Shown piece by piece: positions 2,333 through 20,677 of a stretch of DNA of 20,677 nt. Position 1 is the stretch's first letter, and each line of letters opens with the position of its first letter. The translations under genes and the position numbers were made by a program. The stretch is from a virus, in the IMG/VR virus record IMGVR_UViG_3300030060_003948, positions 33,189 to 53,865 of that record; one strand, 5' to 3'. The notes beneath the pieces are model-generated. The model saw only the letters and a list, made by a program, of their open reading frames with translations, did not search any database and was not told the origin of the DNA.

Positions 2333-3193
2333 GTGAAATACGTAACACGTAAAGCAAAAATAATCAGAGAATCGGGTAGATCATCTGATTTTATTACACC
2401 ATCATTTGGTTTTGGCTGTGTATACAGATGTAATTACTGTTATATGCGTAGACATGTAAGTAGAGGGCTAACAATAGCCAAGAATACACAAGAACTAATA
2501 GATGTTATAGATAACCATGTAAAATCATTACAATGGCCTAAAGCCCCTAATCAGACTCATACAAATTTTTATACTTATGACTTTAGTTGTAACGAAGACT
2601 ATGTAAGGCACATAGAGTTTCATGATTGGCAACTACTATTTAATTATTTTAAAAATAGTGACAGAGCCTTTGGCACTGCAGCAACTAAATATGTTAACAG
2701 ACATTTATTAACATTTAATCCTAATAGAAAAATACGTATAAGATTTAGTCTAATGCCTCAACATTTATCAGACAAGTTAGAGCCTGGTACTAGCAAAATA
2801 ATAGAAAGAATAAAAGCAATAAACGAGTTCTACGATGCAGGCTATGATGTTCATATTAATTATAGTCCCGTAATCGTATATGATAACTGGCTCAACGACT
2901 ATCAAGATCTGTTTAGACTTGTTAGTGAAAATGTTAGAAACGACATTAAAAAAGACGTTCTAGCAGAATGTATCTTCTTAACGCACAATGCGAGTATGCA
3001 TGAACAGAATGTATCAAAGAATACGAGGGGTGAAGAGTATTTGTGGACTCCCCATAATCAGGAGGAAAAAGTGTCACAGTATGGTGGACACAATATACGA
3101 TACAACTGGTTTTACAAGAAGAAATACATAGAGCAGTTTAAATACATGCATACTAATGGTGTACCTTGGAATAAAATAAGGTATATCTTTTAA
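2333..3193 (+). CDS. Radical SAM protein, spore photoproduct lyase-like
   Basis: A 286-aa protein with C29-x3-C33-x2-C36 in the context TPSFGFGCVYRCNYCYMRRH, the radical S-adenosylmethionine 4Fe-4S motif. The surrounding TPS-G-C and CYMRRH pattern and the downstream TYDFSCNEDY segment resemble the spore photoproduct lyase family seen in phages. The family founder repairs spore thymine dimers; the substrate here is unknown, with DNA photolesion repair a reasonable inference. GTG at 2333 is used because the ATG at 2328 reads ATG-AAG-TGA and stops after two codons. The AGGAGG at 2317-2322 is 10 bases before GTG. Confidence 0.75.
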   Translation: MKYVTRKAKIIRESGRSSDFITPSFGFGCVYRCNYCYMRRHVSRGLTIAKNTQELIDVIDNHVKSLQWPKAPNQTHTNFYTYDFSCNEDYVRHIEFHDWQLLFNYFKNSDRAFGTAATKYVNRHLLTFNPNRKIRIRFSLMPQHLSDKLEPGTSKIIERIKAINEFYDAGYDVHINYSPVIVYDNWLNDYQDLFRLVSENVRNDIKKDVLAECIFLTHNASMHEQNVSKNTRGEEYLWTPHNQEEKVSQYGGHNIRYNWFYKKKYIEQFKYMHTNGVPWNKIRYIF

Positions 3194-4285: not shown

Positions 4286-4525
4286 ATGCCAACAGCTCAA
4301 GGAGTAAACGTAGAAGTATCATCATACACAAGAGGTGGAACATTTGAATCTGGTAGTTTTGTAAAATTAGCAGATGTTCTTAGAGAATATGCAGTAGACC
4401 AAGGTGAAGCAATTATAGAAGTAACAGGTGAAGACGGTGAAGAAAGAAAAGTCACTGCTGCAATGAACCTGCAAGAAGGTGATACTATAGTAATTATGAA
4501 AGCCAAAAACAAATCAGGTAGATAA
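4286..4525 (+). CDS. ThiS/MoaD-like ubiquitin-like modifier
   Basis: A 79-aa protein with AAAAGGAGG before its ATG. The layout matches a beta-grasp ThiS/MoaD/ubiquitin-like fold: an N-terminal strand (NVEVSSYT), a glycine-containing hairpin, a helix (KLADVLREYAV, about 27-37), a strand pair with a turn (IIEVTGEDGEERKV), and the diagnostic LQEGDTIVIM before a short tail. The tail ends K-S-G-R, not Gly-Gly; removal of the last Arg would expose Gly78. It is followed by E2-like, JAB and E1-like genes, which is the main reason to call it a conjugated modifier and not a sulfur carrier. Confidence 0.7.
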   Translation: MPTAQGVNVEVSSYTRGGTFESGSFVKLADVLREYAVDQGEAIIEVTGEDGEERKVTAAMNLQEGDTIVIMKAKNKSGR

Positions 4526-4546
4526 GTCGGCTTTTTAAAATAGAGA

Positions 4547-4629
4547 AGGGGGCAATAACTGGTCCTGTAAGTCGAAGAGCCTCATGGGCAAGTCCCGTGG
4601 ACGAACGCAAAGGAATATGTGAGCCCCCT
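4547..4629 (+). ncRNA. Structured element F inside the ubiquitin-like cassette
   Basis: AGGGGGC (4547-4553) pairs perfectly with GCCCCCT (4623-4629). Inside, CATGGG (4583-4588) pairs with CCCGTG (4594-4599; one G-U) over a 5-base loop, and GTC (4571-4573) can pair with GAC (4600-4602). The 3' side contains AACGCAAAGGAA (4604-4615), nearly identical to AACGCAAGGGAA in element H. It lies between the modifier and E2-like genes, just before the AAGGAGG site of the latter. It could tune their relative expression. No known class matched. Confidence 0.45.
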
Positions 4630-4649
4630 ACTCACAACAAGGAGGTTCT

Positions 4650-6011
4650 ATGAACGAAACTGAACAACTATGGTGCGATTTATTAGAAGAATGGCACAGT
4701 AATACTAGTGGTGCAAATGAGCCAGAAATGAGTTTAGAGAATCAAGCCAAATATCTTTCTAAAAAATACCCAATTAAAGTAACTACTGTAAAAAAAGCTC
4801 GTTATGATAGTAGTAACGAAGAGTCAATATCAGTAGATGAAGACAGAGCATTGGTATGTTTAAAGAAAGTTATAGTCAAATATAGACCACACCTCCATAT
4901 GGGAGAGTATTGGCTTGATGTGGATTTTAGCAATGGTGTTCAAAACTACTCTTTCTATAATTTACAAGAGTTAGAATCAGAAACAATGGCACTGTATGCC
5001 CAACATCCTCATATAAACAATGGTAAACCATGCTTAGGAACTTATCAAGCTGACCTAGGCACAGCATTTGTTGCAGCTAATTATATACAATTTATGTCGT
5101 TAATAAGAGCATTCTTAGGAACATACACAGGTAATGATACATATTTTAGAGGTACACATTTTAAAACAATAGAATTAAAATGTCAATTACATAGTGTAGA
5201 ACAAATTAATGATATATTTAGTGAAGAAGCAGCAAACTCAGGAATAGATGCTTATAGTGTAGCATCAGATCCAATGAGATGGAACTGGCCTAAAAATTTA
5301 ACAGCTTTTAATACTATAACAATTACAGGTCAAGAACCACAATTACTACAGGCATATTTTAGAGTTAAAGAATTTCCATTTTTACATCAAAGGTATAATG
5401 GGAATTTGTATGAATATGCTAATAGTGTGACAAATAAAATACTTGGATACATATCAATTGCACATCATATAGGTGAATTAAGCCTAGTACAGTCTTTTGA
5501 ATTTGTAAGGGTATTTTTATTAACATGTAAAGCACATTACAACGGAGAAATGGATGAAGAAACAAGTAGAAAACTAGAGAAATTAGCAAGTGATATATAT
5601 ACTGCTCAACAAACTGGTAAAGTTTCTTTAAATCCTAGATATTCTGTTTCATTAGATAATGAAAATAGAGACGAGATTACTAATCTTAACACATTAACAA
5701 GAAATCATATGCGTGAAGATCCTAATCAGTTTCTAAAAGAATTAAAATGGGCAGGTGATAAATTAACAAACTTTGTTGTATTGCTAAGAAAACAAGCGCC
5801 ACACAAAGCAGCTCAAAACTACTTAATAACTCTTAAAAATTCAGTAGATGTAGATACTATTGAACTAAGATATAAAAAAGTAAGAAAGTTTGCATGTAGG
5901 TTGGCATTACAACAAGTGGAAAGAGACAAAAGGAGGTTCATAAATGAACTTAATAAATCAGAAGTTAATAATTCCTTCGACGATTTGGGACAAGGTACTT
6001 TATTTTCTTAA
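4650..6011 (+). CDS. E2-like ubiquitin-conjugating protein with helical extension
   Basis: A 453-aa protein starting at ATG after AAGGAGG. Residues about 75-165 look like a prokaryotic E2/UBC domain: strands around MGEYWLDVDF and VQNYSFYN, then H119-P-H-I-N-N-G-K-P-C128-L-G, equivalent to the E2 HPN...G..CL active site, with C128 as the predicted thioester cysteine. Residues about 170-453 are a long, mostly helical extension of unknown function. The protein ends in QGTLFS, which fits the QxxLF sliding-clamp-binding pattern. It overlaps the JAB gene by 68 bases. A role in transferring the upstream modifier is inferred from the family and context. Confidence 0.72.
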   Translation: MNETEQLWCDLLEEWHSNTSGANEPEMSLENQAKYLSKKYPIKVTTVKKARYDSSNEESISVDEDRALVCLKKVIVKYRPHLHMGEYWLDVDFSNGVQNYSFYNLQELESETMALYAQHPHINNGKPCLGTYQADLGTAFVAANYIQFMSLIRAFLGTYTGNDTYFRGTHFKTIELKCQLHSVEQINDIFSEEAANSGIDAYSVASDPMRWNWPKNLTAFNTITITGQEPQLLQAYFRVKEFPFLHQRYNGNLYEYANSVTNKILGYISIAHHIGELSLVQSFEFVRVFLLTCKAHYNGEMDEETSRKLEKLASDIYTAQQTGKVSLNPRYSVSLDNENRDEITNLNTLTRNHMREDPNQFLKELKWAGDKLTNFVVLLRKQAPHKAAQNYLITLKNSVDVDTIELRYKKVRKFACRLALQQVERDKRRFINELNKSEVNNSFDDLGQGTLFS

Positions 6012-6792
6012 AAAGTTTCCAAGTTTAGAATGGTCAGGACCAGCATGGTACTCACATGAGAAAGATGAAAATGGTTTTCCAACTGAAGTAAAGTTAGAAT
6101 ACTTTCATCCATTACATTTAGGTACAGCAAGTGAAACAGATTGGGACGGCAAAGAACTAATTAAAATATATAAGCCTTTACGAAAAGAATTTCCTGAAAT
6201 AGGTAAATCTTGGGTTCAAGGCAATATACACTCACATCATAGCATGGGAGCATTCTTTAGTGGCACAGATATACAGCAATGTGAAGACGGCGCTAATGAA
6301 AATTTTTATTATTCATTAGTAGTGTCAACTAAGCCTGGAAAAGAAGTGCATTTTGGTGTGTCATACCCCGATCAGTTTGGGAATATACATGTGCTTGAAT
6401 TTGAAGATATAGAAATAGAATCTATAGAAAATACAGATGACGAATGGGTAAAACAAGCAAAGTATATTAATAAAAACAGAACAAAAGTTACCCCTCAACT
6501 ATACACGAGAAAACATAATTCTTACTATAAAGAACAGGGGACTTTATTTGGTGTAACAAATGCGGAACAAAACCCCCAAGACACCAAACAAGACAGGTAC
6601 GAAGAATGGATGGATGTAATGTCATTCAACAATTCATTTACTGGTGAAGTAGAGGAGTTAGGATTTGCACAATGGGATGCATACGACACACTTATGCTTG
6701 ACTATGAAAAAGGTAGGATAAAGAAAAACAAGTTAAAAAAAGAACTTAAAAAAATAGGAGTAGATGAGCATGGACACCCGATACCTTCGTAA
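5944..6792 (+). CDS. JAMM/JAB-domain metallopeptidase
   Basis: A 282-aa protein starting at ATG 5944 with AGGAGG inside the E2-like gene. It has an intact JAMM zinc signature: H96-S-H98-x7-S106-x2-D109, with E29 (SLEWSGPAWY) as the probable catalytic glutamate. Such enzymes cleave ubiquitin-like proteins from targets or trim their C-termini; here trimming the modifier's terminal Arg would be the simplest use. The region after about residue 165 is an extra tail containing EQGTLFG (about 197-203), a second QxxLF clamp-like motif matching the end of the E2-like protein. It overlaps the E1-like gene by 23 bases. Confidence 0.82.
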   Translation: MNLINQKLIIPSTIWDKVLYFLKKFPSLEWSGPAWYSHEKDENGFPTEVKLEYFHPLHLGTASETDWDGKELIKIYKPLRKEFPEIGKSWVQGNIHSHHSMGAFFSGTDIQQCEDGANENFYYSLVVSTKPGKEVHFGVSYPDQFGNIHVLEFEDIEIESIENTDDEWVKQAKYINKNRTKVTPQLYTRKHNSYYKEQGTLFGVTNAEQNPQDTKQDRYEEWMDVMSFNNSFTGEVEELGFAQWDAYDTLMLDYEKGRIKKNKLKKELKKIGVDEHGHPIPS

Positions 6793-7450
6793 CCAAGACA
6801 TTATCGATCAATCAAGATTAGATAAGATAACAGTAATAGGAGCTGGTGGTATAGGTTCTGCATTACTACAAAACGCTGCAATAATGGGATTTAAAGAAAT
6901 AACCGTCTGGGACCCTGATATGTTAGAGGAACATAATTTGTCCACAACATCATGGCCAGAATGCTACTTAAATCAACCAAAAGTACATGCAGCAAATAAG
7001 ACATGTAAAAATCTTAATAAAAAGGTTAAAATAAATCTTAGAGAAGTTTTCTGGGAAACTGGAATGCCATTAGAAAACAAAGTATTCTTAACGCCTGATA
7101 ATATGGAATGTAGGCTTGCAGTATACAATCAATGGAAAGAAAACCCAGACAGAGAGTTCTTACTTGACATGAGAATGGGTGCATTGGGTTTTGAAATAAT
7201 AACTGTGACCAGAGAGTCCGATTATTTCATGGAATCCTATGCCCCAAGTTCCGCAATACCCGACGACCCCTGTACAGCAAAACACACAATATTTTGTGGT
7301 AGTTTAGCAGCATCATATGGCCTAGCACAAGCATTTAATGTCTTGCAAAATAGGATTTATTATGCGTACATTTGGGGGTCGTTAGGTCCTGTTAGTTTAC
7401 GTAGAGAGCATCTCGTTAAACCACAGATAATTAATAAACTTGCTGTATAA
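6770..7450 (+). CDS. ThiF/E1-like adenylating enzyme
   Basis: A 226-aa protein with the Rossmann-type E1 fold: an N-terminal RY-x-R helix, ITVIGAGGIGS (GAGGIGS about 24-30), WDPD (D48, D50), HNL (N56), a lysine in QPKVHAA (K71), and PDN....R (D110, N111, R115). C168 in DDPCTAKH is a candidate catalytic cysteine. The usual N-L-x-R after the ATP loop reads N-L-S-T-T, so that arginine is missing. ATG 6770 is chosen because AGGAG (6756-6760) is nine bases away; ATG 6764 leaves only three. It would activate the modifier's C-terminal glycine and pass it to the E2-like protein. Confidence 0.78.
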   Translation: MDTRYLRNQDIIDQSRLDKITVIGAGGIGSALLQNAAIMGFKEITVWDPDMLEEHNLSTTSWPECYLNQPKVHAANKTCKNLNKKVKINLREVFWETGMPLENKVFLTPDNMECRLAVYNQWKENPDREFLLDMRMGALGFEIITVTRESDYFMESYAPSSAIPDDPCTAKHTIFCGSLAASYGLAQAFNVLQNRIYYAYIWGSLGPVSLRREHLVKPQIINKLAV

Positions 7451-7529: not shown

Positions 7530-8393
7530 ATGTTAAAAGTAAATAAAATAAGTACCGATTGGTCCGATGATTTGCCAGGTGGAATAACTTGGTTTTTTAT
7601 TGGTCAGCCTAAAACAGGTAAAACTACTCAAGCATCAAAATGGTCACCAAAAGGCAGTGAAGGTTGTCTAGTTATAGACACAGATTTAGGTGCAGATTTT
7701 GTAGATGCTGCAAATGTAGTTACTTGTTGTGGTTTGAATCCTCCAACAAGAGTACAAGAAAAAGATGGTGTAAAAGTTACTAAAAATGGTCAATCAGTTA
7801 TAGAGATAGTTCCAACAAATGAACGTGGATTTTACTATAGAGGTGGACCAGAAAAAGGTAATCCTATGCATGTTTATTCATTAGCAGAAATATTAGCTGA
7901 TTTAATGAAAAACTGGCATGAATATTCTTATGATACTATAGTTATAGATACTATAGATCAGGTTAATTCATGGATTGAAGATGTCGTTAAAATTGATTTA
8001 GGCATTCAAAATATGGGTGACGGGAATTGGGGTGCAGATTGGGCTGCAGCTAAGAGAAAAAATGCAGATATTGTAAAAAAACTGCAAGATTTCTTAAAAA
8101 AGAAAGGTGGAAACTTAATACTAATATCACATGCTAAGCAAACAGCTATGACTGATGATAAAGCACAATTAGCTCCATCTTTACCTAGTGGTTTAGGTAG
8201 AACATTATGTGCTAAAGCAGATGTAATCGGATATGCTACTGTTAATAAGTCAACCCAAGAATATGAAGTATCATTTGAAGGTTATGACGAGAGAATGGTC
8301 GGTTCAAGACTAGCACCATTAGCAAATAAAGCTTTACCATTCGATTACGAAACAATAATAAATGAAATAAAATCCTATAAGGAGGAAAAATAA
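7530..8393 (+). CDS. Sak4-like RecA-fold recombination ATPase
   Basis: A 287-aa RecA/AAA-type ATPase with Walker A GQPKTGKTT (25-33), a Walker B IVID (137-140) in YDTIVIDTID, and a KKKGGNLILISH strand typical of the sensor region. Size and arrangement fit phage Sak4-type single-strand annealing recombinases. It begins at ATG after AGGAG and is followed with no gap by the 196-aa gene, whose ribosome site lies in its 3' end. That pairing of Sak4 with an ssDNA-binding protein is common in phage recombination modules. Role in homologous recombination or replication repair is by family. Confidence 0.78.
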   Translation: MLKVNKISTDWSDDLPGGITWFFIGQPKTGKTTQASKWSPKGSEGCLVIDTDLGADFVDAANVVTCCGLNPPTRVQEKDGVKVTKNGQSVIEIVPTNERGFYYRGGPEKGNPMHVYSLAEILADLMKNWHEYSYDTIVIDTIDQVNSWIEDVVKIDLGIQNMGDGNWGADWAAAKRKNADIVKKLQDFLKKKGGNLILISHAKQTAMTDDKAQLAPSLPSGLGRTLCAKADVIGYATVNKSTQEYEVSFEGYDERMVGSRLAPLANKALPFDYETIINEIKSYKEEK

Positions 8394-8984
8394 ATGGCAA
8401 TAATGCGTTCAGAAGTAAAAAAGAGTGGTGGTGATTGGCTAGGTATTAAAACTGGTACAATTGCAAAAATAACAGATGAAGCAGCTAAGTATGACTGGGC
8501 TGATGTTTATTTAGTTATTGAGTTTAATGTAGAAGGTTCTGATTATCCAAGAATCATGAAAATAGCTGGTTCTTATGATAAAGAGTCTAACGGTCAAATC
8601 AAAGATTGTTCATTACTTAAAAAAGTAACACATTTCTTTGATGCTATTGGTGAAATGGGTGGACCAAATCATCTAGGCCAATGGGTTAATGAAAAAGAAG
8701 AACCTGTTGCAGATATTGTTACTCATTTAAATCAATATATGGGCACTAGTCTAACTATATTTGTATTTAAAGAACTTGCAAAAAATGGACAAGCATATAC
8801 TAGAGTACATAATAAAGTATTAGCTAAAACTGCCAACTCAGAAAATGAATTAGAAGGTTATATTAATTTTCTAAGATCTAAAGGGTTCTTAAATGAGGCT
8901 CCTAAAGATATGTCTACACCAGCACAATCAGTGCAAATGAATGGCGCAACGAATGTTGACGGTATAGATATTGCAAATCTATAA
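8394..8984 (+). CDS. Probable ssDNA-binding protein of the recombination module
   Basis: A 196-aa protein starting immediately after the Sak4-like stop codon, with GGAGGAAAAATAA before ATG. Residues 12-150 show alternating strands (WADVYLVIEFNVEG, RIMKIAGSYD, TSLTIFVFKEL, RVHNKVL) compatible with an OB-like fold, followed by a low-complexity tail ending DGIDIANL. The sequence is not a close bacterial SSB and I assign it from its place next to the Sak4 homologue. It could instead be another replication accessory protein. Confidence 0.5.
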   Translation: MAIMRSEVKKSGGDWLGIKTGTIAKITDEAAKYDWADVYLVIEFNVEGSDYPRIMKIAGSYDKESNGQIKDCSLLKKVTHFFDAIGEMGGPNHLGQWVNEKEEPVADIVTHLNQYMGTSLTIFVFKELAKNGQAYTRVHNKVLAKTANSENELEGYINFLRSKGFLNEAPKDMSTPAQSVQMNGATNVDGIDIANL

Positions 8985-10749
8985 TTATATAGAGATAGCT
9001 AAGGACGCTCCAAAGAATAGGGGCGTCCTAATACCTAAAGAGGAACTTCCAAAACATATGAATGGGGTTCCTCTATATAGGTCTTTGTATATGTATGGTA
9101 AAGATGCTTATGACTATGCAGATGCACATAATAATAGTTTGAGAAATTATTATGGTGTTAGAGCAATTGACAATATTTTAATAGATATTGACAAAGAACA
9201 AAATACAGATGATTTTACATTAAAAAAATGTCAGTCAATAGTATTTAGTTTAACAGATGAATTTGACCTGCAGCAACATAATTTTAGGGTATATTTCTCT
9301 GGCTCTGGTTACCATATAATGATTCCTAATTCTGTTTTTAATTTTGTACCATCAGAAGAATTGCAATTTCAGGTAAAAGACACTATGATGAAGTTATTTC
9401 CTGATATTGATTCAATGATATACATGAGAACAGGATTGTATAGAGTTGCACATACTATAAACAAAAAAAGTGGTTTATATAAAATTCCCCTTACTTACCA
9501 AGAAATAATGAATAATACATGGCAGCAGATACACGATTTAGCAAAGTATCCTAGATTAGAGTTTCCATATACAGAATTACATGGAGACGGCGAACTAGAA
9601 GACTATATCGTAACTGAACAAGCTATGAAAAGAACTTTGGGTAAAGTAATGGAACCTAGGAAAGTAGCAACTTGCATACAAGCTATGTATAATCAAGGAC
9701 CACAACAAGGTTCTAGACACAAAACAATGCTTAGAATGATTTCACACTATAGAAGACACGGTATTCCATCGGAAGCAGCAAAAGAAATAATGTTAAAATG
9801 GAATGACGGTCAACTACATGAGCATGAAATTATAAAGCAAGTAGAATATGCATATAATAAAGGTTATCAATATGGCTGTAAAGACGAATTAATGTCTAGT
9901 CTATGTAACCCTAAATGTATATACTACAAAAGAAAAGACTATTTTGTAGATGTGATGACATCAGATAGCATGCAAACACAACTGGAAGATCGGTTAACAA
10001 CTGATTTTACAGGTAGAGCTTATAATTTTTCTAAATCATTAGGTTTAGAGCAAGATTGTATGTTTTACCCTGGTGACCTTATAACTATATTTGGCCCAAC
10101 TGGTAGTAGCAAAACTACTTTGGCTCATAATATTGCATTAGGTTACAACCATTATGAAGACAGAATCGATTTAGATGCACAAATACCTACGCTATATCTA
10201 TCTTTAGAGCTTGCTGGTTGGTATATGCATAGAAGAAGTCTTCAGATTGCATCAAATAAACCAAAAGATGTCGTTACTGCAGAATATAGAAGCATCTATC
10301 CTACTGTAAAAGACAAAGTTCAGCATATAAGTGTGCAAACTGTGTCACCTACACTTGAACAGATACAAAGTAAGATAACTGAATTGCAACCTGCTATGGT
10401 AATCGTAGATTATATTGATTTAGTCGAAACTCCGCCACATATAAAAGGCGAGTACGAACAAATTAAACATATATCTCATGGATTGTCTAATATGGCTGTT
10501 AATTTAGATATAATAATCGTACAAGTGTCTCAGGTAAGCCGAGAATACAGTAGAAACGAAGTATTAGACCTTTATGCAGGTAAAGGTTCAGGTGCTATAG
10601 AAAATGCCTCTAGAAAGGTAATTGGCTTAAATGGTCAAGCAAATTCACCAAATAAGTCAGTTAAATTGTTTAAAAATACAGATGGAGAGTTGTTTGAAAC
10701 AGAAGTAGAATGGACGCCATCTTTCAGATTACGGAGGACAAATGTCTAA
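8971..10749 (+). CDS. Primase-helicase fusion
   Basis: A 592-aa replication protein. The N-terminal archaeo-eukaryotic-type primase has ILIDIDKE (D72, D74), SGSGYHI (about 110-116) and D147 before IYMRTGLYRVAH. Residues 247-280 look like a PriCT-type linker; cysteines 303, 312 and 316 could bind metal. The C-terminal DnaB/RecA-like helicase has Walker A GPTGSSKTT (375-383), VIVDYIDL (D480) and QVSQVSRE. TTG at 8971 gives a 14-base overlap but lacks a good ribosome site; ATG 9058 is possible but would remove conserved-looking residues. It would unwind and prime DNA at the phage fork. Confidence 0.85.
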   Translation: MQIYNYIEIAKDAPKNRGVLIPKEELPKHMNGVPLYRSLYMYGKDAYDYADAHNNSLRNYYGVRAIDNILIDIDKEQNTDDFTLKKCQSIVFSLTDEFDLQQHNFRVYFSGSGYHIMIPNSVFNFVPSEELQFQVKDTMMKLFPDIDSMIYMRTGLYRVAHTINKKSGLYKIPLTYQEIMNNTWQQIHDLAKYPRLEFPYTELHGDGELEDYIVTEQAMKRTLGKVMEPRKVATCIQAMYNQGPQQGSRHKTMLRMISHYRRHGIPSEAAKEIMLKWNDGQLHEHEIIKQVEYAYNKGYQYGCKDELMSSLCNPKCIYYKRKDYFVDVMTSDSMQTQLEDRLTTDFTGRAYNFSKSLGLEQDCMFYPGDLITIFGPTGSSKTTLAHNIALGYNHYEDRIDLDAQIPTLYLSLELAGWYMHRRSLQIASNKPKDVVTAEYRSIYPTVKDKVQHISVQTVSPTLEQIQSKITELQPAMVIVDYIDLVETPPHIKGEYEQIKHISHGLSNMAVNLDIIIVQVSQVSREYSRNEVLDLYAGKGSGAIENASRKVIGLNGQANSPNKSVKLFKNTDGELFETEVEWTPSFRLRRTNV

Positions 10750-11296
10750 TAAACCAACAACAAGAGATCTAATAGGTGCTCTTATTGATTTACAAATCGA
10801 TAGGGAAAATCAAGAACTTTTAGAGCCAGATAATACAGAGGCACTAACAACGATTGATAATTCTATTAGTCAACTTAAAAAAGAAATCTCTAATAAAGCG
10901 TCTTCTATAGATTACTTTATGGTAGAGATGAACAAAAACACAAACCTTATTGATGCTGAAATAAAAACACATATGGATGAGGTTAAAAGATTGCGTAATA
11001 GAAAAAATGCAATTAAACGAACCGAAGACTACTTAAATAAAGAGCTTCTTCCTATGATAATCAATACTGCTGGAAACGATGGAGTGTTTAAAACAGATAC
11101 CACTAAGTATAAAATGTATCAAACCTGGGGACCAGTAGAAGTTACAGATGAAGAATCAGTTCCAGATAACTACAAAAGATACAAGGTAGAAATAGATAAA
11201 AAGAAAGCCAGACAGGATATTATCAAAGCTGCAGAAGACGGCATGGGAATATCAGGTTTTCAAATTAAAAAAGTAGACAGAATAAGGAGGTCTTAG
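10742..11296 (+). CDS. Siphovirus Gp157-family protein
   Basis: A 184-aa protein with GGAGG just upstream, overlapping the primase-helicase by 8 bases. The order fits the Gp157 family: a long coiled-coil helical half (about 36-100, ISNKASSIDYFMVEM...DEVKRLRNRKNAIKRTEDYLNKEL), then a beta part with FKTDTTKYKMYQTWGPVEVTD, a VPDNYKRYKVEIDKKKARQDI segment, and a C-terminal GISGFQIKKVDRIRRS. Members are frequent in phage recombination and replication clusters; the biochemical role is unsettled. The next gene starts inside its stop codon. Confidence 0.75.
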   Translation: MSNKPTTRDLIGALIDLQIDRENQELLEPDNTEALTTIDNSISQLKKEISNKASSIDYFMVEMNKNTNLIDAEIKTHMDEVKRLRNRKNAIKRTEDYLNKELLPMIINTAGNDGVFKTDTTKYKMYQTWGPVEVTDEESVPDNYKRYKVEIDKKKARQDIIKAAEDGMGISGFQIKKVDRIRRS

Positions 11297-14378: not shown

Positions 14379-14495
14379 TCATTTCTTTTTTTTAACTACG
14401 TAAGTATATTTTTTTTGACCATAGAATACTGGGACTGAAGTAGATGACCTAGTCCAATAATCTTTAGGAATCTCTATTATCTTCTTTTGCTGCAT
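14379..14495 (-). CDS. Nested microprotein, 38 aa
   Basis: Reverse-strand frame ATG 14495 to TGA 14379, overlapping the last 32 bases of the giant ORF in a different frame. It encodes MQQKKIIEIPKDYWTRSSTS followed by VPVFYGQKKYTYVVKKKK. The mix of aromatic, proline and alternating hydrophobic residues looks like real protein. The hairpin at 14343-14371 lies eight bases after its stop, so it would be the last gene of the reverse operon. Its ribosome site is weak (GATAAAG), which suggests coupling to the upstream giant gene. Confidence 0.5.
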   Translation of the reverse strand: MQQKKIIEIPKDYWTRSSTSVPVFYGQKKYTYVVKKKK

Positions 14496-17400
14496 TATTT
14501 GCTTTATCTGCCTTTTTAATTTCTCTAGCTATTTGTATATAAGGTATTCCTGTTCCTTTTTCTATAGTATAGTAAGGATTTTCCATAACTCCTGTAACAT
14601 CTCTTGCCATTCTTCCGAATGGGAACATTGTCCACATATAATAGTCTGTTAGCCTACTATAATCATTTGTTACCATAGAATTAAACAGGGCTGGAGCCAA
14701 CCGCAAACCTGGCGGAGTAACCATTTGGAGTGGAGCTAGTGCAGTTGGCCAAACCCCGAAAAATGCTCTATCTCTTTCAACTTCATCACCAAAGATCCAA
14801 TCAGCAGTATCTTGAAACCAAGAATAAGGCTGTGGCATTGCTGTTTCAAATAAAGAGTAAGCGAATATATTTGCCATACCTAAAACAAACATATCAGTAC
14901 TAGTTTGTCTTTTAAGTCTTTCAAATTCTGGAGTACCACGTCTAAATCCATGTAACTTAGCTTCTCTGTATACATCATTTCTAAATCTTACAGAGTTCCA
15001 AGCCCAAGTTTGGAAACGTGTCATAACTTTACCTAATGCTGTAGCACTAAATGCTGGTCTATATGGAGCAGAATATAAGAACTGTGTAGCCTGTACACCT
15101 TTTTTAGCCATTTCTATTAAAAACGGGTCATTTAAGCCCATATTAGCATGACCATAAATCTCCCTAGCTTGTAAATAGTGTGCAGCAAATGCATCTCTTC
15201 TCAATGCTCTTTCAGGATAACGCATAAACCAAGCAGCATTCTGGAACATTGCTTCAGTAATTTGATGCTTTTTAGCTAGTGAAAGTAATGTTTCGTCCTT
15301 GACCATAGGGTCTTTCTTTAAAACTTTTTCAGCATCCATAAAGAATCTTTTATATTTACCAGACTTAAAGTTTGGATTTAAACCTGCCTCATAAAGAACA
15401 AAGTTGGGAACAACTCCGTGACTAATGGCCCAAGCTTCAATATCTTTTTTAGTAGACCAATCAGATGCTTTTCCAGCTATATTAGTTCTCCAGTATTCTA
15501 CATTTCTAGCATTTCTCCAGTTACGCCATCCAGTAGATTGTATTGTATGCATTTGTCCACCAAATACGTTACCAGTAGCCGACTTAGGGTGAGCAAGTAG
15601 TGTAGCCATTTGATATTTAGCTTCTAAGTTAGACCAATGTCTTATATCCATTTCATCTACACCTTGTAAATCAGTAGGTAAAGACGGATCTTCCTTCATA
15701 CCAACAGTTTTTCTAATTCTATTTACCATATCTTTTACATGATTATCAGCAAACCAACTATAAGGTGTCCCTTTAACTTTCATTAGTTTCGCATCCGCAC
15801 CAGTAAGCCAAGACTCGGGTAGTTTAGAAGGAAAACCCATAGCTCTAGATATATAATCATAAATATAGTTATTCCAAGCAAACGCTTGTTGTGGGTCTTT
15901 CCATTCTGCTAATGCTTTTTTGTTAAAGTTAGATAACATTTTTTTAGATAGTATCTGCCCTATCTGCCTATGATAAGTATCTATTAAATTCTTTTGATAT
16001 ATATCCCAAGCACCTAGGTCTCTATTCCATCCTGGAAGATGTATGTTTCTTGACATCATATTACCAGAAATAGGGTCTTTTTCAAGTGCTCTCATATGAT
16101 CGCCTTTTCTTTTATTAGCAATCTCATTTAAGGCACCTCTAATCATACCATCTTCAGCTACGTCATTAACAATCCAGTCTCCTGTCATAGACTTATATCT
16201 TAAAATTAATTTAGCAATTTCTTGCTCTCTTTGTTCATCAGGAATACCTGTTTGTTTTTTAAGTTTAGCAATAGCTGCTTCAATTGCTCGTTTTGCAACT
16301 GATTTGTTTTGTATAAAGTGTGGATGATACTCAGTAGATTTAAACTGTCTAGTTCTACCATACTCTGCTTTACCTAAGTTTTTAGCAAGTTCTAAATACA
16401 TGTCTTTTTCTGCTTTAGTTTGTGCCATATCTCGCATTTCTAAAACATTTTCAATTTGTATAGACCTAGATATTTTTCTTAAATTATCTAAACCAAACCT
16501 AATGTCAAGAGGTTTTCCTGACTTTAAATTTCTCATTATATCATCAATAAATTTTTCGCCTTTAATTTTAGGCAGCTTAGTATTACCAAACCAGTATTGA
16601 ACCTTACCCTTTTTAGTTTCTAAATATTTATTAATAGGATTGTCAACAGAATTGTCAATTTCATGTTTTCCAGTTCTTCTATTGTATCTATAATTAGATC
16701 CTGCTATCCAGGTATAAGTTTCTGCAGCTCTTTCAGTTAAGACTTTATTTATATTTTTTGCAATAGTTTCACCATTTTCTCTATAAGTTCCACCTTTTTT
16801 GCGAACAGCAAATATATTTTTAGATGTGTTTTTCCAATCAGCTATTTCTTCAGCTTCTTTTAAATTATCTTGATAAACCTTTAAATCTATACGATATGCT
16901 TGATCTTTTTTATTTGCATTTGCGCTTTCAAAAGATGCCAAGTCACGTCTAGCAGTAACAACTTCAGCAATATGTTGTCCCATACCATCAGGTAAAGACT
17001 CATATCCAGTTTGATCTCTAAGAGTTTGCTCTAATAAGTTTTTCTCATCCTCATCCATTTTAATAGCTAAAGCTTCTGCTTTACCAAGAACATATTGTAT
17101 ATTCTCTATAGCATGTGTAGGTCTACCAACATTACCACGACGCCACTCACCTTTAAAGTTTTGGAATCGGCCTTCCTGTGTAAATATATCAAAATCTTTA
17201 ACCATCATTTCTCTAGAAACTGTTTTAGGAAAAAGCATCCAGTGACGCTCTGCTAGTTTTAATATATTATCTTTTGTTAAAGAGCCGTCACGTACGAAAA
17301 CGGTACCACTGCGCATATCTTTAAAGAAATTATTTACAACACGATAATCCTCAACACCCATAGCGTCAAAGTTTTTAGCAACCAAAGACCTGGTGATTTG

Positions 17401-20400
17401 GTTTAATTTATTAGTATTACCTATAGATTTACCATAGTATGATATATGCCCAATAAGTTCATCAACCATCTTGCGTTCAAAACTAGACAATGAAGTATCC
17501 CCAACACGCTTAAGTCTTTCACGACTAGCATAAAGACCTTCGCTATCAGACTCTAATGGATCTTTAGGAGCAATATCAACTAACTCTCCCGCTTTATTAT
17601 TTCCATCCAATGCTTTGCTATAATCTACATCTTTTAACTGAACATTATCTCTATAGTCAAATTGTTCGCTATATTTCTTTAAAAAATCTCTAACGGCCCT
17701 ATCATTAACATACTTAGATGACATTCCAGTCTTTTCAAATAATGTTTCACTACCACTTAATCTAATTTGTCTTATAAGAGGATTAACTAATTGCTTGACA
17801 TTAGCATTTAAACTATTGTAATAATCGTAATTAATTAAGTCTTGCGCTTTGTCAAACGTAGATAACAGCATAGTATCAACTAAATAAGACTCTGCATCAC
17901 TTAATACTCTTGTTTTTTGCTCACCTTTAGAATCTTTACCCATTCCAAAATAATTATCTAATTTAAAGTTTTTTATTCTATTGTCAATTCTTTGTTGATT
18001 GCTATATGCTAACTCTTTATTTTTTAAGTTAAATACCTTTCTCATGCTAAAGTTTTCAAAAGAGGCATCATCAATAATACTTTCACCTTTTTCTGCTTCA
18101 TATGCATTAATTATAGCCCTAGCTCTATCACTTCTAGCCATTTTCTTAGTATCAGAAACAAAATTAGCAGCAGAACGTATAAAGTCATCAGAAACACCTG
18201 CTTTTTTAGCATTATTTATAGCATCTAGCAACTGTAAAGCAGATGCACGATCCATTCCATCGTTTTGTATAAAGTCTGTTGATTGTCTGTAGGCTCTATC
18301 AATCATTTCACTTCTATAAGTAAGCATATTAGCCATAGCTTGGTCGTATTTTGTTTGATTAAAAACACCATTGTCTATAAAATACTTTTTATTTTTTTGA
18401 TCAAAAGGTGTACTTCTAGCTTTAAATGTTAGAGTATTAAAAAAGGTTTTACCTTTTAAGCCTGAGAAAAAATTGTCATACATTTTAAAGTCTTGCAACA
18501 TTTCTCTTCTAACTTCAGGTTTGAATAATTCTGCATCTATTGCACGCATTGACAATTGACTCTCTGGAGACTTAAAGCTGAATCTACCTAGTAAACCTCC
18601 AACAACTTTCTTGCCATTAGCATCCATTCTATAAGAATCATTAAGCATTTTTAATTCACCAGCTATATTTTTATATTCATCATATCTATTTAGCAGCGCT
18701 TCTTTATCTATTCTTCCTAAAATATCATCAGAATAGTCTAATGGTTCTAATTCCTTAACCATTTTACCAAGCATATTACCTTTTTGATTATCATTTAATA
18801 AATGTATTTTGCTAGCAAACTCTTGTATTTCATGAGAATAAAATCTTCTATTCTTATCATAGTTTCTAGAAAAATAACCTCTATTGAAACCTTGGAATAT
18901 TTTAACTAAGCCTTGCTTAGAATGATAGTAAGGTGTAAAACTATTTTTAGCAGCGTCTGAATTAAAGTCTAATTCAAATAAAGAATGATAAGCAACATCA
19001 TAAAATTTTTGAGCACCAACTAAACCAAGTTCATCAAGCGGATCAGAACCAAAAGCAATTTGAGACCTAAACAATTCCCTAGAATAATTTAAAGAATCAT
19101 CGTCTAATCTAGGCTTAACATAAGCAACATGTTCTTTATTTTTACCCCAAACAAGCATTTCTCTAGTATCTTCTTTATATTGTTTCTTTTTATAATCAGA
19201 AAGTTTTTCATATTTATCTACTTCAATATATTTACCGTTCTTATCTACATACCTTTTAACAGTATTAAACTTCATAGCATCATAAGCAGCGTTTAGTATT
19301 TGTTTACTAACAACAGCAGGCCCAAGCTGATCACGACCATCAACTGCTTTGTTTGCTATATCTAATCTACCTTCAGGGGTAAACTTTCCTATGAAAGACT
19401 TGTAAGCATCTGACTTATTGCCAGTAGTAGCATCGTTAGTATAAGTAAATAAATCTTGCCAAGTAACATTTTTACCAGCTTTAATTTTATTTAACACTTG
19501 CTTATCATGTGAATCTTTAGGATTTAGTATATCTTGTAGTATTTCTAAACCTTTTTTAGATATAGGAGCTTCCTTATTATCTGCTATTTTTAAAGTTTCA
19601 GGGTCTCTAAACTCATATTTATTTTGATGGTACATTTTTCTATACTCTGGCTTCATACCAAAAAGAACAAAAGCTTTATCACCATCAAGGTCAGCACCTC
19701 CTAGAGCTCTCATAGTTCTAGGATGAAATACAGCCCCATGACCCTTTATACCTGTAAACCCTGCAAAGGCTAATTCATGTGCACCAGATATAGAGTCCAT
19801 AGGAACACGTAGAGAAATAGTTTTAAAAAAGTCTTTTACTTTATCGTTATGCCTATAATCTTTCCATAACTTTCCTAATTTCATTCTTTTACCACCAGCA
19901 ACTAAATTGCTTACATCATATTCTACATCCATATATAAATCGTCTAAGTAAAATAACTGGTCTGGATTTTCAACACCATAGGTTTCTTTTAAGTATTTTC
20001 TATCTTTCATAATACCTTTTCTACCTTTAGTCATATCCATATTCATGTCTTTAAACTTAGGGTCAATACGCATCCACGGATCGTAACCACGCATTCTAGT
20101 AGATATACTATAATCCCATTTAGGTCTAATAATTTTATTAACTACAAAATTCTTCATAGCTGCCTGGAGATAGTTTCTAACATCTTTGTGTAAGAAAACT
20201 GCTAAATCAGGATATATCTCCATCATTCTATTGATAGAAGAAGTAAATGTCTTAGCCTCTGCTATATTTTCTAAATATTCTTTAGAAGATAATTCACCAG
20301 ACTCATAGTCTGCTGTAAGATTCTCAATATTAGACCTTAATACTTTTTGATACAGCTTAGCTACAAAATCAGGATGGTTGTTGTTTTTAATTGCATCAAC

Positions 20401-20677
20401 TACATCTGATAAACCAATTTTATCTATATTTCTAAGTATATCTTGCTGCTCAGCTTCTGATATTTTTTCACTCTTAAGAGCGTCGTCTAATCTAGTATTC
20501 CATTCGTCATTACCTTTAAACTTTGTTTCAATAATATCTTTATAAAAATCATCAATAACCTTTTGATTTATCTTACTCCAAGAATGAGGTAATAAATTAG
20601 ACATCATCTGTTTAGGTATTTGTTGTGGATCTAGCATATGTTGTGTTTGTTTTTCAGATAAAGAACCCTTTATAGAT
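14464..20677 (-). CDS. Giant two-barrel RNA polymerase-like / polyvalent virion protein (partial)
   Basis: Open from the stop at 14464 to the window edge; the first ATG at 20637 has no ribosome site and the frame stays open 13 codons upstream, so the true start lies outside. Numbered from that ATG, D316-L-D-G-D320 sits in GGADLDGDKAFV, preceded by LRVPM (276-280) and HPRTMRALGG: the R-P...HP...DxDGD order of the catalytic barrel of multisubunit, YonO/QDE-1 and crAss-like phage RNA polymerases. D-Q-L-G-P (436-440) recalls the LG-x-I motif after it. The C-terminal ~450 residues, with LLAHPKSATGNVFGG and ATQFLYSAPYRPAFSATALG, resemble large phage polyvalent or injected proteins and contain hydrophobic stretches. 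A virion-borne transcriptase is inferred. Confidence 0.6.
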   Translation of the reverse strand, partial: SIKGSLSEKQTQHMLDPQQIPKQMMSNLLPHSWSKINQKVIDDFYKDIIETKFKGNDEWNTRLDDALKSEKISEAEQQDILRNIDKIGLSDVVDAIKNNNHPDFVAKLYQKVLRSNIENLTADYESGELSSKEYLENIAEAKTFTSSINRMMEIYPDLAVFLHKDVRNYLQAAMKNFVVNKIIRPKWDYSISTRMRGYDPWMRIDPKFKDMNMDMTKGRKGIMKDRKYLKETYGVENPDQLFYLDDLYMDVEYDVSNLVAGGKRMKLGKLWKDYRHNDKVKDFFKTISLRVPMDSISGAHELAFAGFTGIKGHGAVFHPRTMRALGGADLDGDKAFVLFGMKPEYRKMYHQNKYEFRDPETLKIADNKEAPISKKGLEILQDILNPKDSHDKQVLNKIKAGKNVTWQDLFTYTNDATTGNKSDAYKSFIGKFTPEGRLDIANKAVDGRDQLGPAVVSKQILNAAYDAMKFNTVKRYVDKNGKYIEVDKYEKLSDYKKKQYKEDTREMLVWGKNKEHVAYVKPRLDDDSLNYSRELFRSQIAFGSDPLDELGLVGAQKFYDVAYHSLFELDFNSDAAKNSFTPYYHSKQGLVKIFQGFNRGYFSRNYDKNRRFYSHEIQEFASKIHLLNDNQKGNMLGKMVKELEPLDYSDDILGRIDKEALLNRYDEYKNIAGELKMLNDSYRMDANGKKVVGGLLGRFSFKSPESQLSMRAIDAELFKPEVRREMLQDFKMYDNFFSGLKGKTFFNTLTFKARSTPFDQKNKKYFIDNGVFNQTKYDQAMANMLTYRSEMIDRAYRQSTDFIQNDGMDRASALQLLDAINNAKKAGVSDDFIRSAANFVSDTKKMARSDRARAIINAYEAEKGESIIDDASFENFSMRKVFNLKNKELAYSNQQRIDNRIKNFKLDNYFGMGKDSKGEQKTRVLSDAESYLVDTMLLSTFDKAQDLINYDYYNSLNANVKQLVNPLIRQIRLSGSETLFEKTGMSSKYVNDRAVRDFLKKYSEQFDYRDNVQLKDVDYSKALDGNNKAGELVDIAPKDPLESDSEGLYASRERLKRVGDTSLSSFERKMVDELIGHISYYGKSIGNTNKLNQITRSLVAKNFDAMGVEDYRVVNNFFKDMRSGTVFVRDGSLTKDNILKLAERHWMLFPKTVSREMMVKDFDIFTQEGRFQNFKGEWRRGNVGRPTHAIENIQYVLGKAEALAIKMDEDEKNLLEQTLRDQTGYESLPDGMGQHIAEVVTARRDLASFESANANKKDQAYRIDLKVYQDNLKEAEEIADWKNTSKNIFAVRKKGGTYRENGETIAKNINKVLTERAAETYTWIAGSNYRYNRRTGKHEIDNSVDNPINKYLETKKGKVQYWFGNTKLPKIKGEKFIDDIMRNLKSGKPLDIRFGLDNLRKISRSIQIENVLEMRDMAQTKAEKDMYLELAKNLGKAEYGRTRQFKSTEYHPHFIQNKSVAKRAIEAAIAKLKKQTGIPDEQREQEIAKLILRYKSMTGDWIVNDVAEDGMIRGALNEIANKRKGDHMRALEKDPISGNMMSRNIHLPGWNRDLGAWDIYQKNLIDTYHRQIGQILSKKMLSNFNKKALAEWKDPQQAFAWNNYIYDYISRAMGFPSKLPESWLTGADAKLMKVKGTPYSWFADNHVKDMVNRIRKTVGMKEDPSLPTDLQGVDEMDIRHWSNLEAKYQMATLLAHPKSATGNVFGGQMHTIQSTGWRNWRNARNVEYWRTNIAGKASDWSTKKDIEAWAISHGVVPNFVLYEAGLNPNFKSGKYKRFFMDAEKVLKKDPMVKDETLLSLAKKHQITEAMFQNAAWFMRYPERALRRDAFAAHYLQAREIYGHANMGLNDPFLIEMAKKGVQATQFLYSAPYRPAFSATALGKVMTRFQTWAWNSVRFRNDVYREAKLHGFRRGTPEFERLKRQTSTDMFVLGMANIFAYSLFETAMPQPYSWFQDTADWIFGDEVERDRAFFGVWPTALAPLQMVTPPGLRLAPALFNSMVTNDYSRLTDYYMWTMFPFGRMARDVTGVMENPYYTIEKGTGIPYIQIAREIKKADKANNAAKEDNRDS

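Follow-up and report, generated by a model that had tools for sequence, protein, structure and literature searches.

The analysis reported here points to a phage that encodes a ubiquitin-like (Ubl) conjugation system of its own and that appears to direct it at the replication machinery of its host. The system is encoded at 4286-7450 of the window, by which we mean the whole 20,677-nucleotide stretch of DNA analysed (positions 33189-53865 of the 53,865-base IMG/VR record IMGVR_UViG_3300030060_003948). Its four genes are read from the plus strand in the order Ubl, E2-like, JAB and E1/ThiF, and the catalytic residues predicted for their products are all present. We assign a probability of about 0.6 to the overall reading that these genes constitute a phage-encoded, reversible Ubl conjugation pathway tied to the sliding clamp or replisome of the host. 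Within this reading, the conjugation chemistry is highly probable from the sequences, from which we infer every chemical step and the target, and docking of the E2-like and JAB proteins on the host clamp, as suggested by their motifs, is probable. The clamp-binding motifs on E2 tails and JAB linkers are newly described here. Ubl conjugation in bacteria has so far been seen mainly as a weapon against phages, whereas here phages own the whole set and hold it fixed in their replication operon.

Profiles built from the window proteins retrieved about 100 IMG/VR loci, 62 of which remained after dereplication, with a few GenBank loci included. All four genes occur in the same order and on one strand in each of the 25 dereplicated viral loci long enough to hold the full cassette (25/25), so that the conservation of order in viral metagenomes, which a first-pass annotation of this DNA had proposed as a check, is borne out by relatives in which the four genes are always together. 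The same annotation had placed the genes in order on one strand, with the last three overlapping, between a radical SAM/Api92-like region and a set of recombination and replication genes. The positions of the open reading frames (a 68-nt overlap between E2 and JAB, a 29-nt overlap between JAB and E1, and a Ubl gene free of overlap) and the family matches of the flanking genes agree with this description. The cassette heads a replication operon that continues downstream with Sak4, a 196-aa protein and a primase-helicase (Table 1). Ratios of nonsynonymous to synonymous substitution rates against the nearest relative are 0.10 for Ubl, 0.23 for E2, 0.15 for JAB and 0.07 for E1, which indicates that the cassette genes are under purifying selection.

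The modifier is a beta-grasp protein with a C-terminal glycine, as judged from its predicted fold, its match to ThiS and an invariant Ser-Gly. Its AlphaFold model (predicted local distance difference test, pLDDT, 81) follows the beta-beta-alpha-beta-beta order of the beta-grasp topology, its profile matches ThiS (2cu3, E 8.5e-6) and SAMP2 (E 0.025) in the PDB, and the top Foldseek matches of the model are Ubls such as SUMO-2 and the TBCB Ubl (E about 0.002-0.01); it matched nothing in Pfam, PHROG or PADLOC. Across 37 Ubls the only invariant columns are Met1, Ser77 and Gly78, and Gly78 may be the last residue, may be followed by R, K, I, N, V, S, C or Y, or may precede a longer tail. Since the residues after Gly78 are free to vary, the pattern resembles that of a trimmed precursor. 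The last protein of the cassette has an E1-like adenylation domain with an ATP site and a predicted catalytic cysteine. Besides the glycine-rich loop and the residues around Cys170, positions D50, D52, K73 and D112 are invariant among 35 homologues, and the context of the cysteine reads (P/S)CT(A/M)KHTIF in relatives and C[ST]xKQT in crAss-like and Flavobacterium phages. The E1 profile matches UBA6, SUMO-E1, NEDD8-E1, MoeB and ThiF and, weakly, BubCD and Cap2. In the JAB protein, the residues expected of a JAB/JAMM peptidase (E29, H96, H98, S106 and D109) are invariant, within a conserved region that begins at about residue 8, and identify it as a predicted member of this family. The Prok-JAB model matches the window protein at E 7.1e-5, slightly under the curated cut-off, and matches all 36 of 36 relatives, with E as low as 4e-7.

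Among 45 homologues of the E2-like protein, which share 12-90% identity with the window protein, only H119, P120, H121, C128 and G130 are invariant, with L451 almost so; HPHx(4-8)CxG is kept in 45/45 long E2s, and no invariant E or H lies downstream of the cysteine. Its AlphaFold model (pLDDT 88.7; predicted template modelling score 0.81) runs from a helix through a four-strand meander and a further strand into the HPH...C loop, followed by helices; its C-terminal half is helical and its tail disordered. In hhalign comparisons with four eukaryotic E2s, the alignment is confined to the active-site stretch, where HPHIN-NGKPCLG falls on the eukaryotic HPNINSNGSICLD (HPN...C) with a pairwise E of 0.005. 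A Foldseek search against viral models returned one full-length relative (E 5e-40), and the protein matched no Pfam, PHROG or PADLOC family.

Taken with synteny and with the Ubl and E2 models, these results support the first-pass identification of a full Ubl/E2/JAB/E1 set in a phage replication operon. Its ThiS/MoaD-like beta-grasp protein agrees with both the model topology and the ThiS profile, its ThiF/E1 protein with GAGGIGS is confirmed by Pfam, and its intact H-x-H-x7-S-x2-D motif proves to consist of residues that are invariant in relatives. Of its E2-like protein, the HPH...C motif and the UBC-like order of elements stand, and support from a solved E2 in Foldseek is absent.

The cassette extends beyond the close relatives of this phage. 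E1 and JAB matched GenBank phages at 22-37% identity, the carriers being the Steigviridae crAss-like phages crAss001, DAC15, Kolpuevirus, cr85, cr106, cr111, cr126 and cr128, Dulem virus 41, and Flavobacterium phages of the Fpv group. The order Ubl-E2-JAB-E1 recurs in crAss001 (gp79-gp78-gp77-gp76), DAC15 and Flavobacterium phage FpV4 (gp53-gp50). In these phages, an E2-like protein with HSH...C.G lies upstream of JAB and is preceded by a candidate Ubl whose N-terminal domain ends in ...[KR]SG (...SSG in Dulem virus 41) before a tail that is long in crAss001 and FpV4 and short in cr106. In the latter phage, Ubl and E2 are not adjacent but have two genes between them, an HNH gene and a further small one. 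Homology of the JAB proteins is certain (hhalign E 3e-33); for the distant Ubl and E2 proteins the sequence signal is weak (pairwise E 0.0015), and homology leans also on position and motif. The replication neighbourhood is likewise shared, with primase and uracil-DNA glycosylase flanking the cassette in most of these Steigviridae records. A tblastn search of E2 against 50,697 phage records gave no match, and E2 homologues in phage records were located through JAB and E1 matches and synteny. An E1-profile scan of species-genome contigs matched no bacterial prophage, and plasmids yielded only ordinary, partial ThiF matches for E1 and none for JAB. The sole E1 match in the species-genome collection was weak and lay on a Methanospirillaceae metagenome-assembled genome contig (L109 4402-5199). 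In crAss-like phages, the operon includes a fifth protein that directly follows E1 and precedes uracil-DNA glycosylase (L016 8191-8940, L018 6648-7460, matching genes), and it may be part of their version of the system. GenBank labels these products hypothetical, metalloprotease, ThiF or, for the crAss001 E1, thiamine biosynthesis protein, and the crAss001 and FpV4 records seen do not name the cassette as a conjugation system. The first-pass remark that the layout could not be matched to a described system thus holds in part: we found no paper in the open-licence literature that names this layout or links crAss-like phages with a ThiF or conjugation cassette, but the layout itself is present in GenBank crAss-like and Flavobacterium phages. 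The occurrence of the cassette in the cultured phages crAss001, DAC15 and FpV4, under uninformative names, makes it testable now in existing phage-host pairs.

The link to the sliding clamp comes from short motifs in the E2 tail and in the JAB linker. The E2 tails end in pentamers (QGTLF, QSELF, QNNLF, QTDLF) in some clades and in hexamers (QVPLSF, QVHLSF, QIPLFF) in others, which correspond to the two forms known for the bacterial beta-clamp-binding motif. In one review, this motif is written QL(S/D)LF, at protein C-termini (PMC9690074). Shuffling of the tails predicts 0.39 E2s with QxxLF or QxxLxF within the last 16 residues, whereas 45/52 have it; elsewhere in these proteins, the motif occurs in eight of 1,535 stretches of that length. 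In JAB, QxxLF follows the catalytic part, in a variable linker, in 25/60 proteins against 0.59 expected, and in the clade of the window the Q, L and F are invariant while the surrounding linker varies. Among ten distant JABs, QxxL[PD]F appears in the linkers of five, each of the five being crAss-like (QGELPF in crAss001, QEELPF in Kolpuevirus 'frurule', QNELPF in cr126, QTNLPF in cr106 and QSTLDF in cr128), against 0.38 expected. With relaxed motifs, 51/52 cassettes have at least one, and among the plausible DNA-metabolism proteins of the 53.9-kb record the strict motif is confined to E2 and JAB. Both predicted motifs lie on a flexible tail or linker (E2 residues 441-449 and 451-453 have pLDDT below 50). 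Ten related phage records of 43-55 kb yielded neither a detectable clamp nor a DNA polymerase of family A, B or C, which suggests that host polymerase III and its clamp are probably used. The first-pass option that the set acts on replisome targets gains support from these conserved motifs.

Several observations weigh against the clamp-directed reading. Foldseek returned no solved E2 from the PDB at a significant E-value for the E2 model, so that the assignment of a UBC fold rests on topology and on the active-site alignment, and a hidden Markov model search gave no significant match to a solved E2 either; we regard the fold as having good support from the model, though not as proven. In hhalign, the similarity to eukaryotic E2s, like that to the E2s and Ubls of crAss phages, is weak (pairwise E 0.0015-0.005). 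The motif is missing from the other distant JABs (DAC15, cr111, cr85, Dulem41 and FpV4), and the ten records searched for polymerase and clamp are not proven complete. The E2 motif is, moreover, dual-coded with JAB helix 1 (DKVxYF). At 5944-6011 of the window, 68 bases encode the E2 tail and the JAB helix in two frames, an overlap kept across relatives. With JAB amino acids fixed and synonymous codons drawn, 2.1 motifs are expected among the 45 positive loci, but the added condition of no stop in the E2 frame raises the expectation to 14.2/52, because avoidance of TAA forces Q. The P value for the E2 motif is also overstated, because the loci are related. That the overlap alone produced the E2 motif was considered and rejected: this is partly true, since the Q is forced, but 45 motifs stand against 14, a large excess even among related loci, and the JAB motif is single-coded.

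If the clamp-directed reading is correct, a plausible cycle can be drawn. JAB would trim the Ubl precursor to expose ...KSG-COOH; E1 would adenylate the modifier with ATP and probably then form a thioester on C170, as its invariant residues suggest; and E2 would accept Ubl on C128 and pass it to a lysine of the target. The C-terminal QGTLF tail of E2 and the QGTLF of the JAB linker would both sit in the hydrophobic groove on the beta clamp of the host, and because E2 and JAB are predicted to dock there, the modification would be aimed at the clamp or at clamp-bound replication proteins, with JAB reversing it. The variable helical half of E2 might take the place of an E3 in target recognition, and the modification might direct the polymerase III and accessory factors of the host to phage DNA. 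In eukaryotes, PCNA is modified by Rad6-Rad18 with ubiquitin and by Ubc9 with SUMO. The proposed cycle would be analogous in recruiting Ubl conjugation to a sliding clamp, but the proteins here belong to a phage, the clamp motif is a predicted bacterial one and there is no E3. A broader and more tentative proposal, to which we give slightly less than even odds, is that at least two phage lineages, the IMG/VR relatives and the Steigviridae, run a complete, clamp-docked cycle of Ubl conjugation and deconjugation as a prokaryotic counterpart of PCNA ubiquitination and SUMOylation, and so take over or regulate the host replisome. If true, Ubl modification of the clamp, as in eukaryotes, would gain a phage and bacterial parallel.

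The predicted chemistry of the cassette is shared with several bacterial systems. In type II CBASS (Cap2) and in BubCD, E2 and E1 are fused. Type II CBASS (Cap2/Cap3) and Bub combine the same E1, E2 and JAB chemistry, and the weak E1-profile matches include both Cap2 and BubCD, but the phage E2 and E1 are separate genes and a Ubl gene is added. No cGAS-like nucleotidyltransferase was matched among the cassette neighbours scanned, and this, with the absence of an E2-E1 fusion, excludes CBASS. Bil likewise comprises four proteins, with BilA as Ubl, BilB as E2, BilC as JAB and BilD as E1 (PMC11354881), and its JAB opens the C-terminal glycine of the Ubl. However, BilA has two Ubl domains, BilD has an inactive and an active adenylation domain plus a Cys domain, and BilB carries a CEHH motif (PMC11354881). 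In contrast, the phage Ubl is a single domain of 79 aa, the phage E1 has one ThiF match in 228 aa, the phage E2 places HPH before C128 where BilB has its histidines after the cysteine, and the phage cassette has clamp motifs and a position in a replication operon. Also close in layout are the uncharacterised type 6d operons of mobile elements, which we take to be the loci later called PRTRC (Prok_Ub / Prok-E2_D / PRTRC-A / PRTRC ThiF). There, too, the Ubl is small, has one domain and ends in glycine, and it is encoded apart from the E2-like, JAB and E1-like proteins, each of which has its own gene. In the type 6d operons, the E2 lacks the upstream histidine and uses a downstream one (Iyer et al. 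2006, PMC1779556, Table 1), the JAB has an extra N-terminal alpha+beta domain with Arg and Trp, and a helical protein is added to the operon (PMC1779556). The phage E2 has instead the invariant upstream HPH and the phage JAB lacks the N-terminal domain. Of 37 Ubls and 45 E2s, none was matched by the Prok_Ub or Prok-E2 models with E of 0.05 or lower, and PRTRC-A (E 0.019) and PRTRC-ThiF (E 0.003) match the window proteins weakly, far below cut-off. As the defining features of both Bil and type 6d are absent from the phage proteins, the cassette appears to be a separate, phage-borne variant that would work like these systems. The Lambda-type TAPI/TAPK pair, a tail Ubl and JAB, was also considered and ruled out by the replication operon and the different gene set.

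Other targets have to be weighed against the clamp. Conjugation might act on the Sak4, 196-aa and primase-helicase proteins of the phage itself, with the clamp-type motifs being incidental or minor. The invariable operon and gene order of all relatives would suit such a role, and dual coding partly accounts for the E2 motif, but the single-coded JAB motifs of two distant lineages and the occurrence of both penta- and hexamers in the E2 tail are left unexplained, and we consider this alternative unlikely. Less probable still is a counter-defence role, in which conjugation or JAB would switch off signalling by a host Bil, Bub or CBASS system or inactivate a different host defence protein. Similar bacterial cascades are anti-phage (PMC11354881; PMC10097602), and E2 evolves faster than E1 and Ubl, as would the surface of a protein in an arms race; yet the cassette is fixed in the core replication operon of all relatives, not in a variable accessory region, it carries the clamp motifs, and stripping host conjugates alone would not need E1, Ubl and E2. 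The interference with host Bil or CBASS entertained in the first-pass annotation obtained no support.

That the cassette is itself a Bil-type defence or superinfection-exclusion module, tagging competitor phages, is improbable to a greater degree. The four activities are those of Bil (PMC11354881), but PADLOC gave no match for Ubl, E2 or JAB, the E1 has no second adenylation domain, the E2 has the upstream HPH and not CEHH, and the cassette is present in every relative instead of sporadically. Least probable, and to our minds very much so, is a sulphur-carrier system for a modified base or cofactor, built on a ThiS/MoaD-like Ubl and ThiF with JAB for processing. ThiS and SAMP2 are indeed the best sequence relatives of the Ubl, and GenBank labels the crAss001 E1 accordingly, but the Ubl ends in Ser-Gly and not Gly-Gly, an E2-like protein with an invariant HPH...C has no role in such a pathway, and the annotated neighbours include no other thiamine, molybdopterin or thiolation gene.

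Table 1. Features of the conjugation cassette and of the adjoining replication operon, in window coordinates.
Feature	Position	Strand	Basis or occurrence
Ubl, 79-aa beta-grasp (ThiS/MoaD-like) modifier, precursor end ...KNKSG-R	4286..4525	+	model, ThiS profile match
Ser77-Gly78, predicted mature C-terminus, one variable residue after	4514..4519	+	invariance in 37 Ubls
E2-like conjugating enzyme, 453 aa: UBC-like N-terminal part, helical C-terminal domain, disordered tail	4650..6011	+	
E2 active-site motif HPHINNGKPC, C128 = predicted thioester cysteine	5004..5033	+	
JAB/JAMM metalloprotease, 282 aa, predicted Ubl processing/deconjugating enzyme	5944..6792	+	Prok-JAB match
QGTLF, predicted beta-clamp-binding motif, E2 tail	5991..6005	+	45/52 E2s
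JAMM motif H-S-H-x7-S-x2-D (H96-x-H98-x7-S106-x2-D109)	6229..6270	+	
QGTLF, predicted beta-clamp-binding motif, JAB linker, single-coded	6535..6549	+	25/60 JABs
E1-like/ThiF activating enzyme, 228 aa, single adenylation domain	6764..7450	+	Pfam ThiF E 1.4e-15
GAGGIGS, nucleotide-binding	6839..6859	+	G26, G28, G29, G31, S32 invariant in 35 homologues
Cys170 in DDPCTAKHT, predicted E1 catalytic cysteine	7271..7273	+	C170, T171, K173 invariant
Sak4-like ssDNA annealing protein, first gene after E1	7530..8393	+	phrog_124 E 9e-25; same position in related loci
196-aa protein without assigned function and primase/DnaB-like helicase, remaining replication operon	8394..10749	+	

The surroundings of the cassette are those of a tailed phage, the remainder of the record consisting of structural genes that include a P22-like portal and a terminase. 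A scan for promoters and terminators yielded nothing informative. The genes upstream of the cassette include one that is Api92-like (DUF1281_C, E 2e-9) and another (window 2333-3193, plus strand) whose product belongs to the radical SAM proteins of the spore photoproduct lyase type (TIGR03886 E 3e-89); the latter is a possible gene for repair of ultraviolet damage. Behind the primase-helicase, the product of a further gene (window 10742-11296, plus strand) matches phrog_253 (Mu Gam-like end protection) and the Pfam family Siphovirus Gp157. On the minus strand, window 14464-20637 encodes a protein of 2,057 aa with no Pfam or PHROG match; it contains GGADLDGDKAFVLFG, which resembles NADFDGD, a motif found at the active site of multisubunit RNA polymerases, and is possibly a giant phage protein of the RNA polymerase type.

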